Shown here in pieces: positions 3,746 through 52,602 of a DNA stretch of 64,000 nt. Source of the stretch: Paracoccus alcaliphilus. Its GTDB lineage: Bacteria > Pseudomonadota > Alphaproteobacteria > Rhodobacterales > Rhodobacteraceae. The stretch covers positions 2,614,001 through 2,678,000 of the forward strand of contig NZ_CP067124.1 of NCBI RefSeq assembly GCF_028553725.1, read 5' to 3'. Each line of letters opens with the position of its first letter. Position 1 is the stretch's first letter. Below the pieces are notes generated by a model, which was given only the letters and a program-made list of their open reading frames with translations, did not search any database and was not told where the DNA came from. The translations under genes were made by a program, and so were the position numbers.

Positions 3746-4459
3746 ATGACCCATGACCCAAATGATCCGAACCGGACCCAACCGGACGAGCCGAAGGAAA
3801 CCTATGTGGAGCCGGTAGAGCGTCGTTCGTCGCCCCTGCCGCTGATCATCGGTGTCCTTCTGGCACTGGCGCTGGCCTATTTCGTGCTGCAGCGTTTCAT
3901 GGCTGATGACACCGTGGCCGTCGAAGGCGACACCACCACCGTCACCACCGAAGAACCCGCCGCCGAGGAAGCCGCCGACGATGCGGCAGCCGCTGCGGAT
4001 GAGGCAGCAGACGCTGCGGGCGACGCCGCCGATGCGGCCTCGGATGCCGCCGATGACGCCGCCACCGCTACGGGCGAGGCTGCCGAAGCCGCCGCCGAAA
4101 GCGCAGCGGATGCCGCCGAAACCGCCGCCGACGCTGCCGGAGAGGCTGCCGATGATGCCGCTGACGCCACTGGCGCGGCCGTCGACGACGCTGCCGAAGC
4201 GGCTGGCGAGGCTGCCGATGCCGCCGCGACCGAGGCGGAAAACGCCGCCGACGCCGCCAGCGACGCGGCTGCCGAAACGGGCGCAGCGGTCGATGGCGCG
4301 GTGAATGACGCCGTGGATGCGGCAGAGGACGCCGCCGCCGAAGCCGAGGCTGCGGCCGACAATGCCGCCGACGCGCTGGACGACGCGATCTCGGTCGAGG
4401 ACGAACCCGCCACGACGGGCACCGGGGGCACCACCACGACGACCCCTCCGGCGAACTGA
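3746..4459 (+). CDS. Alanine-rich single-pass membrane-anchored protein
   Basis: Unrecognised 237-residue protein. A short acidic/proline N-terminus (about residues 1-30) is followed by one hydrophobic segment (LPLIIGVLLALALAYFVL, about 32-49). Then come about 160 residues of Ala with Asp and Glu in AADAA/ADDAA patterns, ending in a Thr/Pro tail. The arrangement suggests an inner-membrane anchor with a long acidic helical or extended periplasmic arm. It is divergent from pepN and followed by a strong terminator. Low complexity makes homology unreliable, and the reverse strand is also open (Ser/Ala-rich), which I regard as a compositional shadow. Confidence 0.6.
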   Translation: MTHDPNDPNRTQPDEPKETYVEPVERRSSPLPLIIGVLLALALAYFVLQRFMADDTVAVEGDTTTVTTEEPAAEEAADDAAAAADEAADAAGDAADAASDAADDAATATGEAAEAAAESAADAAETAADAAGEAADDAADATGAAVDDAAEAAGEAADAAATEAENAADAASDAAAETGAAVDGAVNDAVDAAEDAAAEAEAAADNAADALDDAISVEDEPATTGTGGTTTTTPPAN

Positions 4460-4484
4460 TCCGATCCACGCCGCGAATACCATG

Positions 4485-4512
4485 AACACCGCGCGAATTC
4501 TCGCGCGGTGTT
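4485..4512 (+). terminator. Rho-independent terminator
   Basis: Perfect 12-bp inverted repeat AACACCGCGCGA / TCGCGCGGTGTT around an ATTC loop, followed by TTTTC. It sits 25 nt after the stop of the Ala-rich gene and 180 nt before pntA, so it isolates the two units. Confidence 0.85.
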
Positions 4513-4653
4513 TTCATTTCTGCGGCCATTTTCGCGGCAAGGTTGCTACGACTTTGGTCACACGCAACTATCCGCAACCGCCGAACGATCCGTCCTTTAG
4601 GTGCAACGGCGATGTTAGCGCACTTGTGAAAGATTGTTTCGCGATGGTATGGG

Positions 4654-4671
4654 TTGCCCAATTCTGGGCAA
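4654..4671. promoter_or_regulatory. Inverted repeat in the pntA leader (possible operator)
   Basis: TTGCCCA-ATTC-TGGGCAA is a perfect 7-bp inverted repeat 24 nt before the pntA start codon. No T-run follows, so a terminator is unlikely. A regulator binding site or a small leader hairpin near the ribosome site are the alternatives. Confidence 0.35.
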
Positions 4672-4695
4672 TAGGAACTGGGGGGCCTTCATAGG

Positions 4696-6270
4696 ATGAA
4701 GATCGGCGCGTTGAAGGAGAGTTTTGAGGGGGAGGCTCGTGTTTCGATCACGCCCTCCTCGTCCTTGCATCTCCAGAAACTGGGACATGAGGTATTCATC
4801 GAATCCGGGGCTGGCGCGCGCGCCGGTTTCTCGGACGAGGATTACGCGGCGGCGGGGGTGACGGTCGAGGCGACGGCGGCCAGCCTTCTGGCGGCGGTCG
4901 ATGTGGTGGCCAGGGTGCGCCCCCCCAGCGAGAGCGAAATCGGCCAGATGCGCGAAGGCCAGACGCTGATCTCGTTCTTTTATCCGGCGCAGAACAGCGA
5001 GTTGCTGGAAGCAGCCCGCCAGCAGGGCATCACCGCCATCGCCATGGACATGGTGCCGCGGATCTCGCGGGCGCAGAAGATGGACGCGCTGTCCTCGATG
5101 GCCAATATCGCCGGTTACCGTTCGGTGATCGAGGCGGCCAACAATTTCGGCCGTTTCTTCACCGGTCAGGTGACGGCGGCGGGCAAGGTGCCTCCGGCCA
5201 GGGTTCTGGTGGTGGGCGCGGGCGTGGCCGGTCTGGCGGCGATCGGGGCTTCGGTCAGTCTGGGCGCGCAGGTTTATGCCTTCGACGTGCGCCCCGAAGT
5301 GGCCGAGCAGATCGAATCGATGGGGGCCGAGTTCGTCTTTCTCGATTTCGAGGAACAGGCGCAGGACGGGGCCGCGACCGGCGGCTATGCCGCGCCCTCC
5401 AGCCCGGAATTCCGCGAAAAGCAGCTGGAGAAGTTCCGCGAGCTGGCGCCGCAGATGGATATCGTCATCACCACGGCGCTGATCCCGGGCCGCGATGCGC
5501 CCAAGCTGTGGACGAAGGACATGGTCGAGGCGATGAAGCGCGGCAGCGTCATCGTCGATCTGGCCGCCGAAAAGGGCGGCAATTGCGATCTGACCGTGCC
5601 GGACGAGCGGATCGTGACCAACAATGGCGTGACCATCATCGGCTATACCGATTTCCCCTCGCGCATGGGTGCACAGGCCTCCGAGCTTTACGGCAACAAC
5701 ATCCGCCATTTCATGTCCGATCTGACGCTGAAGAAAGACGGCGTGATCGACCACAACATGGAGGACGACGTGATCCGTGGCGCCACCGTCACCCGCGATC
5801 ACGACATCACCTGGCCGCCTCCGCCGCCGAAGGTTGCGGCCATCGCGGCGCAGAAGCCCAAGGAGAAGAAGAAGGAACTGACGGTCGAGGAGCGCCGTGC
5901 CGCCGAGGTCGCGGCCTTCCGCGCCGAGACCAGAAGCCAGGTCACGCTGCTGGTGGCCGGGGGTCTGTTCCTGCTGCTGATCGGGCTGGTCGCTCCGGCC
6001 AGCTTCCTGTCGCATTTCATCGTCTTCGTGCTGGCCTGTTTCGTGGGCTTCCGGGTGATCTGGAACGTCGCCCATTCGCTGCACACGCCGCTGATGGCGA
6101 TCACCAATGCGATCTCGTCGATCATCATTCTGGGGGCGCTGATGCAGATCGGCTCGGGCTCGGCCTGGGTGGTGGTGCTGGGGGCGCTGGCGGTGCTGAT
6201 GGCGGGCGTCAACATCTTCGGCGGCTTCCTCGTCACCCGGCGCATGCTCGCCATGTTCCAGAAATCGTAA
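4696..6270 (+). CDS. pntA: NAD(P) transhydrogenase subunit alpha
   Basis: Alpha subunit of the proton-translocating transhydrogenase, which uses the proton gradient to make NADPH from NADH. Domain I starts MKIGALKES and carries the Rossmann motif [11 protein letters not shown] near residue 175. After a charged linker ([13 protein letters not shown]) come four hydrophobic helices in the C-terminal 140 residues. At 524 residues it is the fused long form, as in E. coli, rather than the split PntAA/PntAB form. pntB follows after 10 nt. Confidence 0.95.
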
Positions 6271-10091: not shown

Positions 10092-10781
10092 TCAAGCAAC
10101 AGCCAGAATACGCGCCAGAGGCGGGGGCAGGGCGCCCGTCAGATCGGCGCAGATCCAGTCGGCCCCGCTGAAATCGCCATCATCGGTATAGGCCGAGGGC
10201 GTCACCAGAACCGGCAGACCCGCCGCCCTGGCCGCCGTCATGCCGGGCATGCTGTCCTCCAGCGCAAGGCATTGAACGGGTTGCATTTCCAGTCGATTTA
10301 GCGCCAGAAGATAAACATCCGGCGCGGGTTTCTTGGCCGCAACCTCATCGCCCGCAGCGATCACGTCGAAGATCTCACCCGCCGGTTTCCCCAGCGTCGC
10401 CGCGATCAGCGCATCGACATTCGGCCTGCTGGTCGTCGTCCCAATGGCCTGCCGCAACCCGGCGTCCCGAGCCGCCGCAATCAGATCCGCGACTCCGGGG
10501 CGCAGCGACACCTGACCAGATGCGACAAGACTTTCGTAATGTGCTGTTTTTAATTTATGAATTTCGGAGATTTGCTGATCTGTCAAATCCACCCCGGCTT
10601 CAGTCGCATAGGCCCGTACCCGCTCTTTTCCGCCGGTAACATGCAGCAGGCGGCGATAGAGGGCGCGGTCCCAGGTCCAATCCAGCCCCGCATCGGCAAA
10701 GGCGCTGTTGAAGGCCGCGCGATGTGTTTCCTCGGTCTCGGACAGGGTTCCGTCCACATCCCAGATCAGCGCCGAAATCAT
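10092..10781 (-). CDS. HAD-superfamily phosphatase, CbbY-like
   Basis: A 229-residue haloacid dehalogenase-like hydrolase. Motif I is DVDGTLSETEETHR, motif II is in the TTTSRPN region, and motif III/IV is KKPAPDVY plus LALEDSMPG. The phrase SETEETHRAAFN is typical of CbbY proteins, which in some bacteria remove the inhibitory sugar phosphate xylulose-1,5-bisphosphate. No Calvin-cycle genes lie nearby, so this role is only a family-based guess. Its start overlaps the stop of the upstream gph-like gene (ATGA), indicating coupling. Confidence 0.8.
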   Translation of the reverse strand: MISALIWDVDGTLSETEETHRAAFNSAFADAGLDWTWDRALYRRLLHVTGGKERVRAYATEAGVDLTDQQISEIHKLKTAHYESLVASGQVSLRPGVADLIAAARDAGLRQAIGTTTSRPNVDALIAATLGKPAGEIFDVIAAGDEVAAKKPAPDVYLLALNRLEMQPVQCLALEDSMPGMTAARAAGLPVLVTPSAYTDDGDFSGADWICADLTGALPPPLARILAVA

Positions 10782-11458
10782 GCCGGCGCCCCGGCTTCGA
10801 CAAGGTCGGGCAGGGCGGTGAAATCATCGAACTGCGCCTGCCATGTCAGTTTTTCCAGTGGTGTCTGGCGATAGCCGCGACTGTAGATCAGGAACGGCAC
10901 CGGCACCGCGGCCGCACAACTGGCATCGAATTCACTGTCGCCGACATAAAGACCCTGAGGCGAACGCGGATCGGCGCCCAACTGCTCGAAAGCCAGCCGG
11001 AGCGGGGCCGGATCGGGCTTCTTTTCCGGCAGGGAATCGCCGCCGACAATGCAGGAAAAGACCGAGGCGATTCCGAAATGATCCAGAATGGCGCGCGTCG
11101 GCACCAGCGGCTTGTTGGTGCAGATCCCCAGAGGATGCCCCCGATCCGCCAGCACCCCCAGCGCATCCGTCACCCCCGGAAACAGCCGGGTCAGCGCCGT
11201 GGCCGCATGATAGCGCGCCATGAAAGAAGCCACCAGATCACGCTGGCTGTCGGCCGGAAGGCCCAGGGCATGAATGATCTTTTGCCAAAGGATATCAACG
11301 CCCCCGCCGATAAAGCTGCGAACCTGCTGCAAGGTCAGCGCCGGATGGTCGTGCTGGCGCAGAACCGCGTTGACGCAGGCATGAATATCCGGTGCGCTGT
11401 CGATCAGCGTCCCGTCCAGATCGAAAACGATGGGGCACGGAGCCATACAAACTGTCAT
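10778..11458 (-). CDS. gph: Phosphoglycolate phosphatase-like HAD hydrolase
   Basis: HAD phosphatase with motif I FDLDGTLIDSAPDIH, a cap with SFIGGGV, motif II CTNKP, and motif III/IV EKKPDPAP plus GLYVGDSEFD. These match Gph, which dephosphorylates 2-phosphoglycolate. The start could be 11473, 11458 or 11446; any of the first two overlaps the 3' end of the thioredoxin-like gene, so three minus-strand genes form one translationally packed operon. Confidence 0.8.
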   Translation of the reverse strand: MTVCMAPCPIVFDLDGTLIDSAPDIHACVNAVLRQHDHPALTLQQVRSFIGGGVDILWQKIIHALGLPADSQRDLVASFMARYHAATALTRLFPGVTDALGVLADRGHPLGICTNKPLVPTRAILDHFGIASVFSCIVGGDSLPEKKPDPAPLRLAFEQLGADPRSPQGLYVGDSEFDASCAAAVPVPFLIYSRGYRQTPLEKLTWQAQFDDFTALPDLVEAGAPA

Positions 11459-12012
11459 TCTGCTGTCTTCCATTTGATCGAGCAGCCCATGGACGCGATC
11501 TGCTCTCTTGGGCCTTGTCCGGTTTCCGCAATGAGTTTCATCGCCTCGAACAACTCGCGCCGCGCATTTTCCGGTCCTGCGCTGCGGGTCGAACTGTCAA
11601 GGCGGCCACGATACTGAAGCTGTCCATCCGCGTTGTAGCCAAAGAAATCAGGCGTGCATTCGGCGCCATAGGCCCGAGCCGTGGCCTGCGTATCATCATA
11701 GAGATAAGGAAAGGTAAATCCGCGCCGTTCCGCCAGATGCTTCATCTCCTCGGGGCCGTCCTGCGGGTATTCGGTCACATCATTCGCGGATATCGCCACT
11801 ACGCCGATCCCGATCTGCTGCAACTCTTTGGCATCGCGGACGATACGGTCCATGATCGACTGGACATAGGGACAGTGGTTGCAGATGAACATGACCAGAG
11901 TGCCGCGCTCTCCGGCGATGTCGGTCAGTTTATGAATGCGTCCATCGGTGCCTTGCAGCGAGAAATCGTGCCAAGGGGCATCAAAGTCACAAACGGGCGG
12001 TGAAACAGCCAT
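11455..12012 (-). CDS. Thioredoxin-family (AhpC/TSA-like) protein
   Basis: A 185-residue thioredoxin-fold protein. FICNHCPYVQ is the active-site CxxC block characteristic of the redoxin group annotated as thioredoxin family protein. DFSLQGTDGRIHKL is the usual N-terminal strand, and the later ECTPDFFGYN contains the cis-Pro region. No signal peptide is seen, so it is cytosolic. It is the first gene of the three-gene minus-strand operon. Confidence 0.8.
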   Translation of the reverse strand: MAVSPPVCDFDAPWHDFSLQGTDGRIHKLTDIAGERGTLVMFICNHCPYVQSIMDRIVRDAKELQQIGIGVVAISANDVTEYPQDGPEEMKHLAERRGFTFPYLYDDTQATARAYGAECTPDFFGYNADGQLQYRGRLDSSTRSAGPENARRELFEAMKLIAETGQGPREQIASMGCSIKWKTAE

Positions 12013-49223: not shown

Positions 49224-49253
49224 ATTATGGGGTATAAATACCCCACAAAGCAA
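49224..49253 (-). promoter_or_regulatory. Promoter of the cro-like operon
   Basis: Minus strand: TTGCTT (49253-49248), 18-bp spacer, CATAAT (49229-49224). Operator O1 fills the spacer, so repressor binding would block RNA polymerase. Predicted start of transcription coincides with the ATG at 49216. Confidence 0.55.
49228..49245. promoter_or_regulatory. Operator O1
   Basis: TGGGGTATAAATACCCCA, a perfect 8+8 palindrome with a two-base centre, between the -35 and -10 of the cro-like promoter. Confidence 0.75.
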
Positions 49254-49269: not shown

Positions 49270-49298
49270 TTCATGCCGCAACGACCATAGGGTATATT
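49270..49298 (+). promoter_or_regulatory. Repressor (PRM-like) promoter
   Basis: TTCATG (49270-49275), 17-bp spacer, TATATT (49293-49298). Predicted transcription start is at 49304-49306, i.e. at the ATG of the repressor, so its mRNA is probably leaderless, as for lambda cI from PRM. O3 overlaps the -10. Confidence 0.5.
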
Positions 49299-49305
49299 TG
49301 CCCCA
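49288..49305. promoter_or_regulatory. Operator O3
   Basis: TAGGGTATATTTGCCCCA, an imperfect copy of the operator palindrome, covering the repressor -10 and ending on its start codon. Suited to autorepression. Confidence 0.65.
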
Positions 49306-49673
49306 TGGAAATGTCGTTTAAAGAAGCACTTGAGCATGCAATGCGCGTGTCTAAGCGCGGGAAATCCAAGCGTAATGTCGCCATTCTGGCTGGCATATCT
49401 CCTGACATTATGAAGAACATAAGTCAGAACAAATCGCGGACGCCCAACGCCGAAGCAGCAACGAAAGTGGCCGATTTCTTCGGTGTGTCATTGTCCGACT
49501 TTTATGCGGGAAACATTCCTGAGGATATCGGCGAGGACGCGACCGAGATTGCAGAGGATGCAGCCAAGGTCAGCGGGGTTGTTCGAGGACTCAGCAAGGA
49601 AAGTCGGGAGAAGGTTCAGGCGTTTGCTGAAGCCCTTCGTCAGACAGAAGAAGCTGCTCGGCGTAGCGAATGA
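49305..49673 (+). CDS. Lysogeny repressor (short CI-like HTH protein)
   Basis: A 122-residue protein with a HTH at about residues 24-55 (RNVAILAGISPDIMKNIS, then RTPNAEAATKVADFFGVS). The C-terminus is a short helical motif (GLSKESREKVQAFAEALRQ). There is no S24 peptidase domain, so RecA-stimulated self-cleavage is not expected. It is divergent from the cro-like gene across three operators. The ATG at 49305 (MEMSFKE) sits at the predicted transcription start; ATG 49311 is the alternative. Confidence 0.75.
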   Translation: MEMSFKEALEHAMRVSKRGKSKRNVAILAGISPDIMKNISQNKSRTPNAEAATKVADFFGVSLSDFYAGNIPEDIGEDATEIAEDAAKVSGVVRGLSKESREKVQAFAEALRQTEEAARRSE

Positions 49674-49882: not shown

Positions 49883-50113
49883 ATGAACGATAAAGACCGC
49901 ATAGCCCAACTCGAAGCCGAACTCGCCGCCACCAAGCGCGCCGCCACGCACATGATGGTCGGCATGGCCATGGGCATCGCGTCAACGCCTGAGGGGCGCG
50001 AGGAACTGGCGGCGGGGTTTGCCGAGGCGGCAGACGATCCAGACCCGGCGATTGCCGAGATGGCGCAGGCTGTGGCGGATGCGATCAGGGCGGCGCTGTT
50101 GGCGGATGAGTGA
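49883..50113 (+). CDS. Small helical protein, first gene of the GHKL/STAS cassette
   Basis: A 76-residue protein (MNDKDRIAQLEAELAATK...) with an N-terminal coiled-coil-like helix and an acidic Ala-rich C-terminus. GGAGAG precedes the ATG. Its stop overlaps the GTG of the ATPase gene, so the two are coupled. Family unknown. Confidence 0.5.
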   Translation: MNDKDRIAQLEAELAATKRAATHMMVGMAMGIASTPEGREELAAGFAEAADDPDPAIAEMAQAVADAIRAALLADE

Positions 50114-51012
50114 GTGGGGGTGATGTGAGTGAAATTATTGTCCCGCTAATTGGGCAGCTAAGCTACCCAAGCGTTGTAGTTGATCTGAACTCAGCGGGCT
50201 TGATTGTGACAATCCCACCAGAAATGGTTATATTTGACCTTGCGAGGGTTGGGTTTGTTGAGCCGTCAGGCGTGGTGATGCTCCACAACCTCACTCGCTT
50301 CCTCATCCATCAGGGATGTCGGGTCGCCTACCGAAATTATGCGGTCCAGCGTCCCGGCCTGATGTTCCTTGATGGAGCAGGGTTCTTTGAGGATGTGCTA
50401 AAGCAAAAAGCTTTCGTCGGCACGCGGAAACAACCGACAACACTAAGTTTGAGGGAAATCCGAACGATTGACGCTCACGGTTGGGTGCAAACTGACTTCC
50501 TGCCATGGCTATCGCATTGCTCAAGACGATCTGCGGCGGCTCTTGGGCACTTCGGCTCGTGCATCAGCGAAATCTTCAATAACATTCGTGACCACAGCGC
50601 GCATCAAGTCGGCAGCATATTCGCTCAGTGGTATCCAAACATAGACACTCTGAAACTAGCCGTTGGCGACTTCGGTCGAGGCATCCCCGCGACGGTGGCA
50701 ACGGTGGAGCCGGGCCTGACGGGCGCTGCCGCAATAGAACGTGCTTTCGCCCCCAACTTCACCAGTCAAAGCACGCCCAAAAACCGGGGCGCAGGGCTGG
50801 ACTTCACACTCAACAACGTGTGCATCGGGCTGAACGGAATGATGACCGTCTACTCCGGCGGCGCTGCGCTGCAAGCCCTTGCAGGTGGACAAATCCGGCA
50901 CCTTAACCCTATATTTGGGAATAGCGGCTATACTGGAACATTGTTCGAGATCATCCTGCCAACCCATGCGATACCAGAGTTCAACCCGCAAGAAGAGGAA
51001 ATGATATGGTAA
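50110..51012 (+). CDS. STAS-like/GHKL ATPase fusion protein
   Basis: A 300-residue protein. Residues 15-80 resemble a STAS domain (IFDLARVGFVEPSGVVMLHN). Residues 130-290 are a GHKL ATPase: N-box ISEIFNNIRDHS (Glu154, Asn158), G1 box GDFGRGI (Asp187) and G2 box NRGAGLDF. There is no HisKA dimerisation helix, so it looks like an anti-sigma/serine-kinase type (SpoIIAB-like) ATPase rather than a sensor kinase. It overlaps both neighbours. The GTG at 50125 with GGGGGTGAT is an alternative start. Located in the immunity region. Confidence 0.7.
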   Translation: MSGGDVSEIIVPLIGQLSYPSVVVDLNSAGLIVTIPPEMVIFDLARVGFVEPSGVVMLHNLTRFLIHQGCRVAYRNYAVQRPGLMFLDGAGFFEDVLKQKAFVGTRKQPTTLSLREIRTIDAHGWVQTDFLPWLSHCSRRSAAALGHFGSCISEIFNNIRDHSAHQVGSIFAQWYPNIDTLKLAVGDFGRGIPATVATVEPGLTGAAAIERAFAPNFTSQSTPKNRGAGLDFTLNNVCIGLNGMMTVYSGGAALQALAGGQIRHLNPIFGNSGYTGTLFEIILPTHAIPEFNPQEEEMIW

Positions 51013-51296
51013 TTCACGTCAAAGACCACCTCTCGGGGTGCGCCACCAATGAGGACGGGGAAGCCCTGCTTACTCTGGTGGACCGCGAGATTCGGGACCG
51101 TGGTGTCGCGCATGTCGATTTCCACGGCGTGATCTACGTCACCACATCATTCGTGAATTCTGCCTTCCTTCCGCTTCTCGACCGAATGTCATTTGATGAG
51201 GTAAAGGGCCGCCTGAAAGTGACAGGCGCCCTTCCGCAGATCGCTGACATGGTGCGAAGAAGGATGGCGGACACCGCCTCACGAGTAGCAGCCTAA
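51006..51296 (+). CDS. DUF4325 STAS-like protein
   Basis: A 96-residue protein. VDFHGVIYVTTSFVNSAFLPLL (split at residues 38-59) is the characteristic DUF4325 core, in which a STAS-like fold replaces the usual phosphorylatable Ser region with TTSFVNS. It overlaps the ATPase gene by 7 nt. By analogy with SpoIIAA/SpoIIAB partners it may be bound or phosphorylated by the ATPase, but this pairing is inferred. A terminator follows 5 nt after the stop. Confidence 0.7.
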   Translation: MVIHVKDHLSGCATNEDGEALLTLVDREIRDRGVAHVDFHGVIYVTTSFVNSAFLPLLDRMSFDEVKGRLKVTGALPQIADMVRRRMADTASRVAA

Positions 51297-51300
51297 CCCC

Positions 51301-51326
51301 AGCCCCGCCCCGAGCGGGGCTTTTTC
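51301..51326 (+). terminator. Rho-independent terminator
   Basis: AGCCCCGC, loop CCCGA, GCGGGGCT, then TTTTTC. It ends the GHKL/STAS operon and lies between convergent genes. Confidence 0.85.
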
Positions 51327-51772: not shown

Positions 51773-51801
51773 TTGACAGTGGGGTAAAGTTACCCCATTC
51801 T
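51773..51801 (+). promoter_or_regulatory. Right lytic promoter (PR-like)
   Basis: Consensus TTGACA (51773-51778), 17-bp spacer, weak -10 CATTCT (51796-51801). O5 occupies the spacer and the -10 start. It points into the recombination/integration operon. Confidence 0.6.
51780..51797. promoter_or_regulatory. Operator O5
   Basis: TGGGGTAAAGTTACCCCA, a perfect 8+8 palindrome of the same type as O1, overlapping the right promoter. About 2.55 kb from O1. Confidence 0.75.
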
Positions 51802-51870
51802 TCATCTCATAGCAGGACGCGAAGAAGCACCCGCCGATCCGCCTGCGTCCCTCAAGAGATGGAGATTTCA

Positions 51871-52602
51871 GTGAACCATTCCGTTGCATTCCCCGACGCC
51901 CCGGCTCGCATTCAAGCGGCCATCGACGCTGGCATCCTCAAGGCTGGATCGTGGGGCGATGGCACCGAAACCGTATGCATGATGAGCGCCATCGTCACTG
52001 GCGCGGACAGCACGAGTGATTGCGTGACTGCTGGCTGGCCGGAATGGCTGGCGTCGCTCAATGTGTCGCTGTTTGACGCCCAAGTCGGCGCTGTCGATGA
52101 AGGTAAGGCGCGAGCGCAATTCGCGCTGGACCTGACCATGTCAGCCTCGGAGCCGTTCGATCACGAAGCAGCTCGCACCCGGTTCCTGATCTCCCGGATT
52201 GATACAGGCGAACATAGCGCGCTCAAGTCTCTCCGTCTCAATCCTGTGGATGCAGATTGGTGGCGAGAGGCCGAACGGGTTGTCCAGTGGATCAGCGATC
52301 TGCTGCGCCGAAAGTTGGCAGGTGATGATGTGGCGGAAGAAATGGACGCCGCCGATGCCGCCGCCTATGCCGCCGATGCCGCCGCCGATGCCGCCGCCGA
52401 TGCCGCCGCCCGTGCCGCCCGTGCCGCCGCCTATACCGCCCGTGCCGCCGCCTGTGCCTCCGCCGATGCCGCCGCCTATGCCTCCGCCGATGCCGCCGCC
52501 GATGCCTCCGCCGATGCCGCCGCCGATGCCGCCGCCGATGCCGCCGCCCGTGCCGCCCGTGCCGATCTCATCAGCGCAATCGAACAGTCGAGGATTGAGT
52601 AA
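51871..52602 (+). CDS. Early protein with Ala-rich repeat tail
   Basis: A 243-residue protein, first gene of the right operon. Residues 1-160 form a globular region (AAIDAGILKAGSWGDGTETVCMMSAI-type block; later WWREAERVVQWISDLL). The last 75 residues are near-perfect ADAAA/AYAA/ARAA repeats from a GCCGAT GCCGCC DNA repeat. I use the GTG at 51871, which has ATGGAG 6 nt upstream; the ATG at 51859 is possible. The repeat style recalls immunity-like proteins with Ala repeats. Function unknown; repressor-controlled. Confidence 0.55.
   Translation: MNHSVAFPDAPARIQAAIDAGILKAGSWGDGTETVCMMSAIVTGADSTSDCVTAGWPEWLASLNVSLFDAQVGAVDEGKARAQFALDLTMSASEPFDHEAARTRFLISRIDTGEHSALKSLRLNPVDADWWREAERVVQWISDLLRRKLAGDDVAEEMDAADAAAYAADAAADAAADAAARAARAAAYTARAAACASADAAAYASADAAADASADAAADAAADAAARAARADLISAIEQSRIE
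52350..52565 (+). repeat. GCC-rich tandem codon repeat
   Basis: About 215 bp of imperfect 6-, 9- and 12-bp units built from GCC GAT/TAT/CGT/TCC GCC. It keeps one reading frame and encodes the Ala-rich tail. Such repeats can expand or contract by slippage. Confidence 0.8.

Follow-up and report, generated by a model that had tools for sequence, protein, structure and literature searches.

The window analysed here, 64,000 nucleotides (nt) of the Paracoccus alcaliphilus genome (positions 2,614,001 to 2,678,000 of contig NZ_CP067124.1), contains a prophage in which three consecutive open reading frames (ORFs) code for proteins of 76, 300 and 96 amino acids (aa). The second is a kinase-like protein combining a STAS-like domain with a GHKL domain and the third is a bare STAS protein of the DUF4325 family; these two make up a conserved and widespread gene pair. 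All three ORFs were found where an initial annotation, made from the sequence alone, had placed them, as was the terminator proposed to close the operon, beyond which lies an ORF on the opposite strand. As called, the genes overlap by 4 nt (76-aa and kinase genes) and by 7 nt (kinase and STAS genes; ATGGTAA), in keeping with the initial description of three overlapping genes. However, a second in-frame GTG at 50125 yields a kinase of 295 aa, as long as its database copies P0001 and P0002, and the kinase gene may start there instead of at 50110, in which case the first overlap vanishes.

In Pfam the 300-aa protein matches HATPase_c below the cut-off (E 6e-4; 20.6 bits against 26.4) and STAS_2 at E 0.09, and a family profile of its N-terminal STAS-like domain matches the STAS domain of prestin at E 0.0012. 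The AlphaFold2 model is confident (mean predicted local distance difference test score, pLDDT, 92.5) and begins with a STAS-like fold at residue 8, with no N-terminal helix-turn-helix (HTH) matched; the closest predicted fold of the GHKL domain is that of the anti-sigma kinase SpoIIAB. We aligned the 102 pairs that passed filters on length, adjacency and redundancy (95%), comprising 99 two-gene rows and 3 rows linked to a VapC toxin gene (see below). E154, N158, H162, D187, G191, G227 and G229 are identical in all 99 two-gene kinases, that of the window included, and G189 is kept in 98. With these seven GHKL residues invariant and no HisKA match in the Pfam scan, the earlier observation of complete N, G1 and G2 boxes without HisKA, as in anti-sigma kinases, is borne out. 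The window kinase resembles SpoIIAB and RsbW in having the GHKL fold of the SpoIIAB subgroup, but differs from the SpoIIAB-SpoIIAA and RsbW-RsbV systems in its extra N-terminal STAS-like domain and in that no linked sigma factor was seen.

Two bacterial stress-signalling systems with related kinases, CapK-CapS and VapK-VapS-VapC (vapKSC), were published in June 2026 (EMBO J; PMC13373217). CapK (HTH-STAS-GHKL) is activated by single-stranded DNA (ssDNA) and phosphorylates CapS, a STAS protein with a winged helix-turn-helix (wHTH), whereupon CapS comes off DNA; for VapK (STAS-GHKL) the proposal is that it phosphorylates VapS and so frees the VapC toxin (PMC13373217). Within the PDB, VapS (9z7o) alone is clearly related in sequence to the 96-aa partner, which matches DUF4325 (PF14213; E 4.4e-5, 23.6 bits against a cut-off of 23) and is modelled by AlphaFold2 as a single domain (mean pLDDT 94.2). 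Thr47 of this partner falls at the position of S48 in VapS, and Ser or Thr occupies this position in 96/99 two-gene rows and in 107 of the 109 aligned STAS proteins, a set that includes the window and the VapC-linked locus L155. The initial annotation had the usual phosphorylatable site replaced by TTSFVNS; this is mistaken, because TTSFVNS itself contains Thr47 and the phosphosite is kept. Neither Pfam nor the single-domain model gives a winged helix or other DNA-binding domain. The two proteins match PHROG 3364 and PHROG 9989 (1.4e-28 and 3.9e-16), both annotated as of unknown function. In PADLOC 2.0.0 no defence-family profile was matched along most of its length by either protein, the partial matches being those of kinase residues 151-259 to 108 of 1750 DrmA positions (E 1.1e-8) and of the STAS partner to positions 9-81 of the 228-position MTase_II profile (E 6e-4).

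Table 1. Features of the kinase-STAS locus and its surroundings, in window coordinates
Feature	Position	Strand	Basis
76-aa protein ORF	49883..50113	+	ORF call
STAS-GHKL kinase-like protein, 300 aa, GTG start	50110..51012	+	ORF call, Pfam, AlphaFold2 model
N-terminal STAS-like domain, residues ~8-97, probable sensor/regulatory part	50131..50400	+	model secondary structure
GHKL ATPase/kinase domain, residues ~108-290, SpoIIAB-like	50431..50979	+	
N box E154-H162 (EIFNNIRDH), including invariant N158	50569..50595	+	two-gene alignment
G1 box D187-P193 (DFGRGIP)	50668..50688	+	two-gene alignment
G2 box N225-L230 (NRGAGL)	50782..50799	+	two-gene alignment
Bare STAS/DUF4325 partner, 96 aa, probable kinase substrate	51006..51296	+	Pfam, AlphaFold2 model, PDB alignment
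Thr47 codon (ACA), aligned with VapS phosphosite Ser	51144..51146	+	alignment to 9z7o_A
Intrinsic terminator-like site closing the operon	51301..51321	+	terminator prediction
Prophage repressor-like HTH protein, 122 aa from ATG 49305; context, outside the conserved cassette	49305..49673	+	HTH_19/HTH_26 matches
Palindrome GGGGTATAAATACCCC, probable operator beside the repressor	49229..49244	.	zero mismatches
Second palindrome, abutting the repressor ATG, probable operator	49289..49304	.	one mismatch
Palindrome GGGGTAAAGTTACCCC, probable right operator, ahead of rightward genes	51781..51796	.	zero mismatches

Profile scans retrieved relatives at 71 viral and 79 genome loci (for the latter, the best 80 of 94 matches were kept); after addition of the copies of the window locus and of three phage records, the set had 154 loci with a kinase ORF, which cluster into 119 groups at 95% identity. 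A STAS gene adjoins the kinase gene in 109/119 groups; of the other ten, three carry the STAS gene as a longer overlapping ORF, six end at or near a contig edge, and in L144 the STAS gene is encoded on the opposite strand. The two genes overlap in 86 of 108 groups, by exactly 7 nt in 59. The cassette is self-contained: among 105 groups with an intact pair (L155 and L006, one copy of the window's own locus, included), the gene that follows the pair is encoded on the opposite strand in 59; where it shares the strand of the pair, it lies beyond 100 nt in 18, at 41-100 nt in 8 and within 40 nt in 16, and in 4 the contig ends. In the background, 41% of 2010 neighbour pairs are on the same strand within 40 nt. 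No third gene recurs in these neighbourhoods, the largest neighbour cluster being an integrase (18 groups). The initial annotation had counted the 76-aa gene as a member of the module, but the conserved unit comprises two genes, and among the collected loci the 76-aa protein is present only in copies of the window's own sequence. It gave no Pfam or PADLOC match and PHROG/NCBIfam matches only at chance level, is weakly similar to the 67-aa protein encoded upstream in a relative from Paracoccus siganidrum (single comparison, E 1e-4), and probably lies outside the unit.

The two-gene cassette is spread over phages and chromosomes of several phyla, and in phages it often lies beside lysis genes or an integrase. 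In PHROG matches of viral neighbours (145 of 161 proteins from 49 loci; 222 families matched), endolysins with up to 10 members, integrases with 8 and holins with 8 head the 25 families with most members. Phage genes in such positions are typically accessory genes serving the lysogen. Chromosomal neighbours examined include genes for a tRNA synthetase, UvrB, NAPRTase, an ABC transporter and CorA; in four loci (L102, L106, L109 and L143) the pair is downstream of a Gln/Glu-tRNA synthetase-like gene, possibly a shared insertion site. Among the 101 genomes around that of the window, kinase matches occur in 6 and reach full family strength in 2, its own genome included. The kinase of the P. siganidrum copy (L077) is 47% identical to that of the window.

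Like CapK-CapS, the pair consists of a STAS-GHKL kinase gene directly followed by the gene for a STAS partner, but the kinase lacks the N-terminal HTH of CapK, the partner lacks the winged helix of CapS, and no immune operon lies downstream. Like VapK-VapS, it combines a STAS-GHKL kinase without HTH with a small STAS protein bearing a conserved Ser/Thr; unlike VapK-VapS-VapC, it has no VapC toxin gene, and its STAS partner lacks the C-terminal tail that VapS needs to inhibit VapC. After the R86 column the window protein has 10 residues and the two-gene proteins a median of 12 (range 0-24, n=99), as against 25, 28 and 29 in the three VapC-linked rows, so the ranges nearly touch; 8 of 109 STAS proteins reach at least 110 aa. 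No VapC-like ORF is present in the copies of the window locus. A VapC profile made from four VapCs, which also found four others outside its training (L172-L175), detects a VapC in just one of the 128 loci with room for it (pair present and at least 700 nt beyond), namely L155. VapC-linked systems came to light in L155 (Methylomicrobium), Streptococcus phage Javan172 (L165, identical to L170), a Deinococcus plasmid (L166), L168 and the viral contigs L172-L175; the four VapCs of the profile are from this set. In a kinase tree of 60 random two-gene rows, the window and 7 VapC-linked kinases, a single branch separates the 61 two-gene from the VapC-linked kinases with a Shimodaira-Hasegawa-like approximate likelihood ratio test (SH-aLRT) value of 99; as the tree was made by a quick method with a midpoint root, strict clade status of the two-gene form is not established. 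The initial statement that no characterised system has this form is overtaken by the publication of CapK-CapS and VapK-VapS-VapC, but it stands for the two-gene form without wHTH or toxin, for which no named system was recognised in titles and abstracts of the open-licence literature (other papers and most preprints lay outside the search).

In Javan172 (L165:2171-6169) a repressor, a HELGH-motif protein, VapK, VapS, an unannotated VapC-like ORF (4263-4793) and an integrase follow consecutively, which places a vapKSC operon within the immunity region of the phage; we take the HELGH motif to resemble that of ImmA-type peptidases. Plasmid P5 of Deinococcus gobiensis has an HTH regulator followed by a vapKSC operon (L166:2414-4814). 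The VapK-like proteins P0145, P0159 and P0173 (392-394 aa) have an extra N-terminal part with Cys pairs that might bind zinc.

Gene content, predicted fold, conserved catalytic residues and phosphosite, constant pairing, missing toxin and wHTH, and the phylogenetic split are features that can be read from sequence. In our estimation they are best explained, with a probability of about 0.55, by a conserved unit of a STAS-GHKL kinase and its STAS substrate, constituting a sister branch of VapK-VapS and a mobile switch that acts on an unlinked target in lysogenic conversion or defence. The partner-switch reading of the initial annotation, with an anti-sigma-type kinase and a STAS substrate, is to this extent supported by fold, catalytic residues and pairing. 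For its catalysis, signal, target, expression and phenotype we infer the following scheme, in part by analogy with the published relays. At rest, the unphosphorylated small STAS protein would hold, or be held by, another protein. A stress or infection signal (ssDNA in CapK) would be sensed by the N-terminal STAS-like domain of the kinase, whereupon the GHKL domain would phosphorylate Thr47 and the STAS protein would swap its partner. With no third gene found repeatedly next to the pair in the various phyla, it is simplest to assume a widespread target that is not linked to the pair and would probably be encoded elsewhere. In the Paracoccus prophage the pair, plausibly co-transcribed with the repressor in the lysogen, would serve as an accessory gene set, most likely for stress- or infection-triggered protection of the lysogen and less likely for control of the prophage itself; a role in defence is possible.

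Several observations weigh against this proposal. That no third gene was found depends on automatic gene calling, with more than 20 kb available in only 50 of the 141 pair loci. Beside chromosomal copies (146 of 148 neighbour proteins from 40 of 68 groups), 216 PADLOC families were matched at 1e-5, none by more than 3 of the 146 neighbours, type I restriction-modification subunits being the top matches among the 25 families with most members. The neighbours do not support an association with defence. Coevolution between kinase and STAS protein shows no concentration at the phosphosite helix, which has 12 of the 60 top couplings against 17 of 96 positions. In 10/154 loci the kinase ORF is shorter than 240 aa, in some of them through split reading frames; L070, L119, L128, L129, L151 and L153, with the kinase frame split into two matching ORFs, are probably decayed copies. 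In Paenibacillus ferrarius (L113:9902-11613) one kinase is followed by two STAS genes (10780-11085 and 11284-11613), an arrangement that a simple pair model leaves unexplained.

A further such point concerns the signal. In the published models an aromatic residue contacts ssDNA, F54 in VapK and W68 in CapK (PMC13373217). In the F54 column, assigned via L155, which also has F at 54, the window has Met57 and F is found in 18/98 two-gene kinases as against 101 of 111 VapK-like proteins (of 120 listed and 770 found, their VapC linkage unchecked). With Met57 in the window and F rare in its branch, the signal of the two-gene kinases may be other than ssDNA; however, as the VapC-linked L165 (Y) and L166 (V) deviate too, this column leaves the matter undecided. 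The two-gene branch has conserved sensor residues of its own, N60 (84/98), T110 (87/98), T111 (83/98) and an LDD-FF stretch, which suggest a signal different from that of VapK.

Among the alternatives, the one that fares best, although unlikely, is a toxin-antitoxin or abortive-infection system of two proteins, with either the kinase or the STAS protein as the harmful part. The related VapKSC protects E. coli by ~2 logs against phage Bas42 (PMC13373217), and the positions in phages are accessory; yet the toxin of VapKSC is VapC, which was not found at the window locus, and neither protein matched a toxin domain in Pfam, PADLOC, PHROG or NCBIfam.

We regard as rather improbable that the pair controls the prophage, with the STAS protein binding the repressor and phosphorylation triggering induction without RecA-dependent cleavage. 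The repressor-like protein, scanned minus its first Met, has a weak CapH-like match besides its HTH matches, and the Pfam scan gave no S24 peptidase match, no self-cleavage domain being found. Palindromes of the same type at 49229, 49289 and 51781 support the initial placement of the pair in the phage immunity region, between the repressor and the right lytic promoter. Mismatch-free matches within the window are restricted to 49229 and 51781; with two mismatches allowed there are 11, not above chance (14/100 shuffles reach 11). The palindrome at 49289 directly abuts the start codon at 49305, which suggests repressor autoregulation or a leaderless message. Behind the right operator lies a protein with a long low-complexity Ala/Asp stretch (51862-52602). 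No plus-strand terminator is predicted between repressor and pair, so that their co-transcription in the lysogen is plausible. The VapC-linked form, too, lies beside a repressor in Javan172, and in Francisella phage KIRK the CI gene is likewise followed by a gene for a 293-aa protein and by a DUF4325 gene, but the CI protein there carries an S24/LexA domain (PMC7924643). Moreover, the pair comes after the lysin gene in Streptococcus phages, with an integrase between pair and repressor in LYGO9, several chromosomal copies lie beside housekeeping genes, and the STAS protein lacks a DNA-binding domain. Since the cassette is also met at a distance from repressors, and in non-phage-like chromosomal settings, the lysogeny decision offered by the initial annotation does not hold as a general role.

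Still harder to sustain is a classical anti-sigma switch, in which the kinase binds a sigma factor that the STAS protein releases, despite the SpoIIAB-like fold: no sigma-factor family is among the neighbour matches listed, leaving the earlier suggestion of host sigma-factor control without specific support, and the cassette is present in Streptococcus. Streptococcus is not known to have a sigma-B pathway. Finally, a decaying VapKSC remnant minus its toxin is highly improbable: VapC and the VapS tail are both absent and kinase frames are broken in some copies, but several phyla retain the catalytic residues and the phosphosite, and the two-gene form falls on one side of a well-supported branch and not as scattered losses.

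As of 2026, the known outputs of the kinase-STAS relay are a transcription repressor and a toxin, whereas the widespread two-gene branch has the kinase and the phosphosite but neither output. We tentatively propose, at somewhat short of even odds, that it represents a third output class within the CapK/VapK family, namely a mobile switch of minimal size, made up of kinase and STAS protein, to which no effector is linked and whose STAS protein would directly control a protein common to hosts of several phyla. The target of the two-gene branch would reveal either a new way in which prophages shield or reprogram the host cell, or a control point that is new for bacteria as a whole. If the proposal of a third class is true, ~1.2 kb is enough for phages and chromosomes to carry a general stress-to-response switch.
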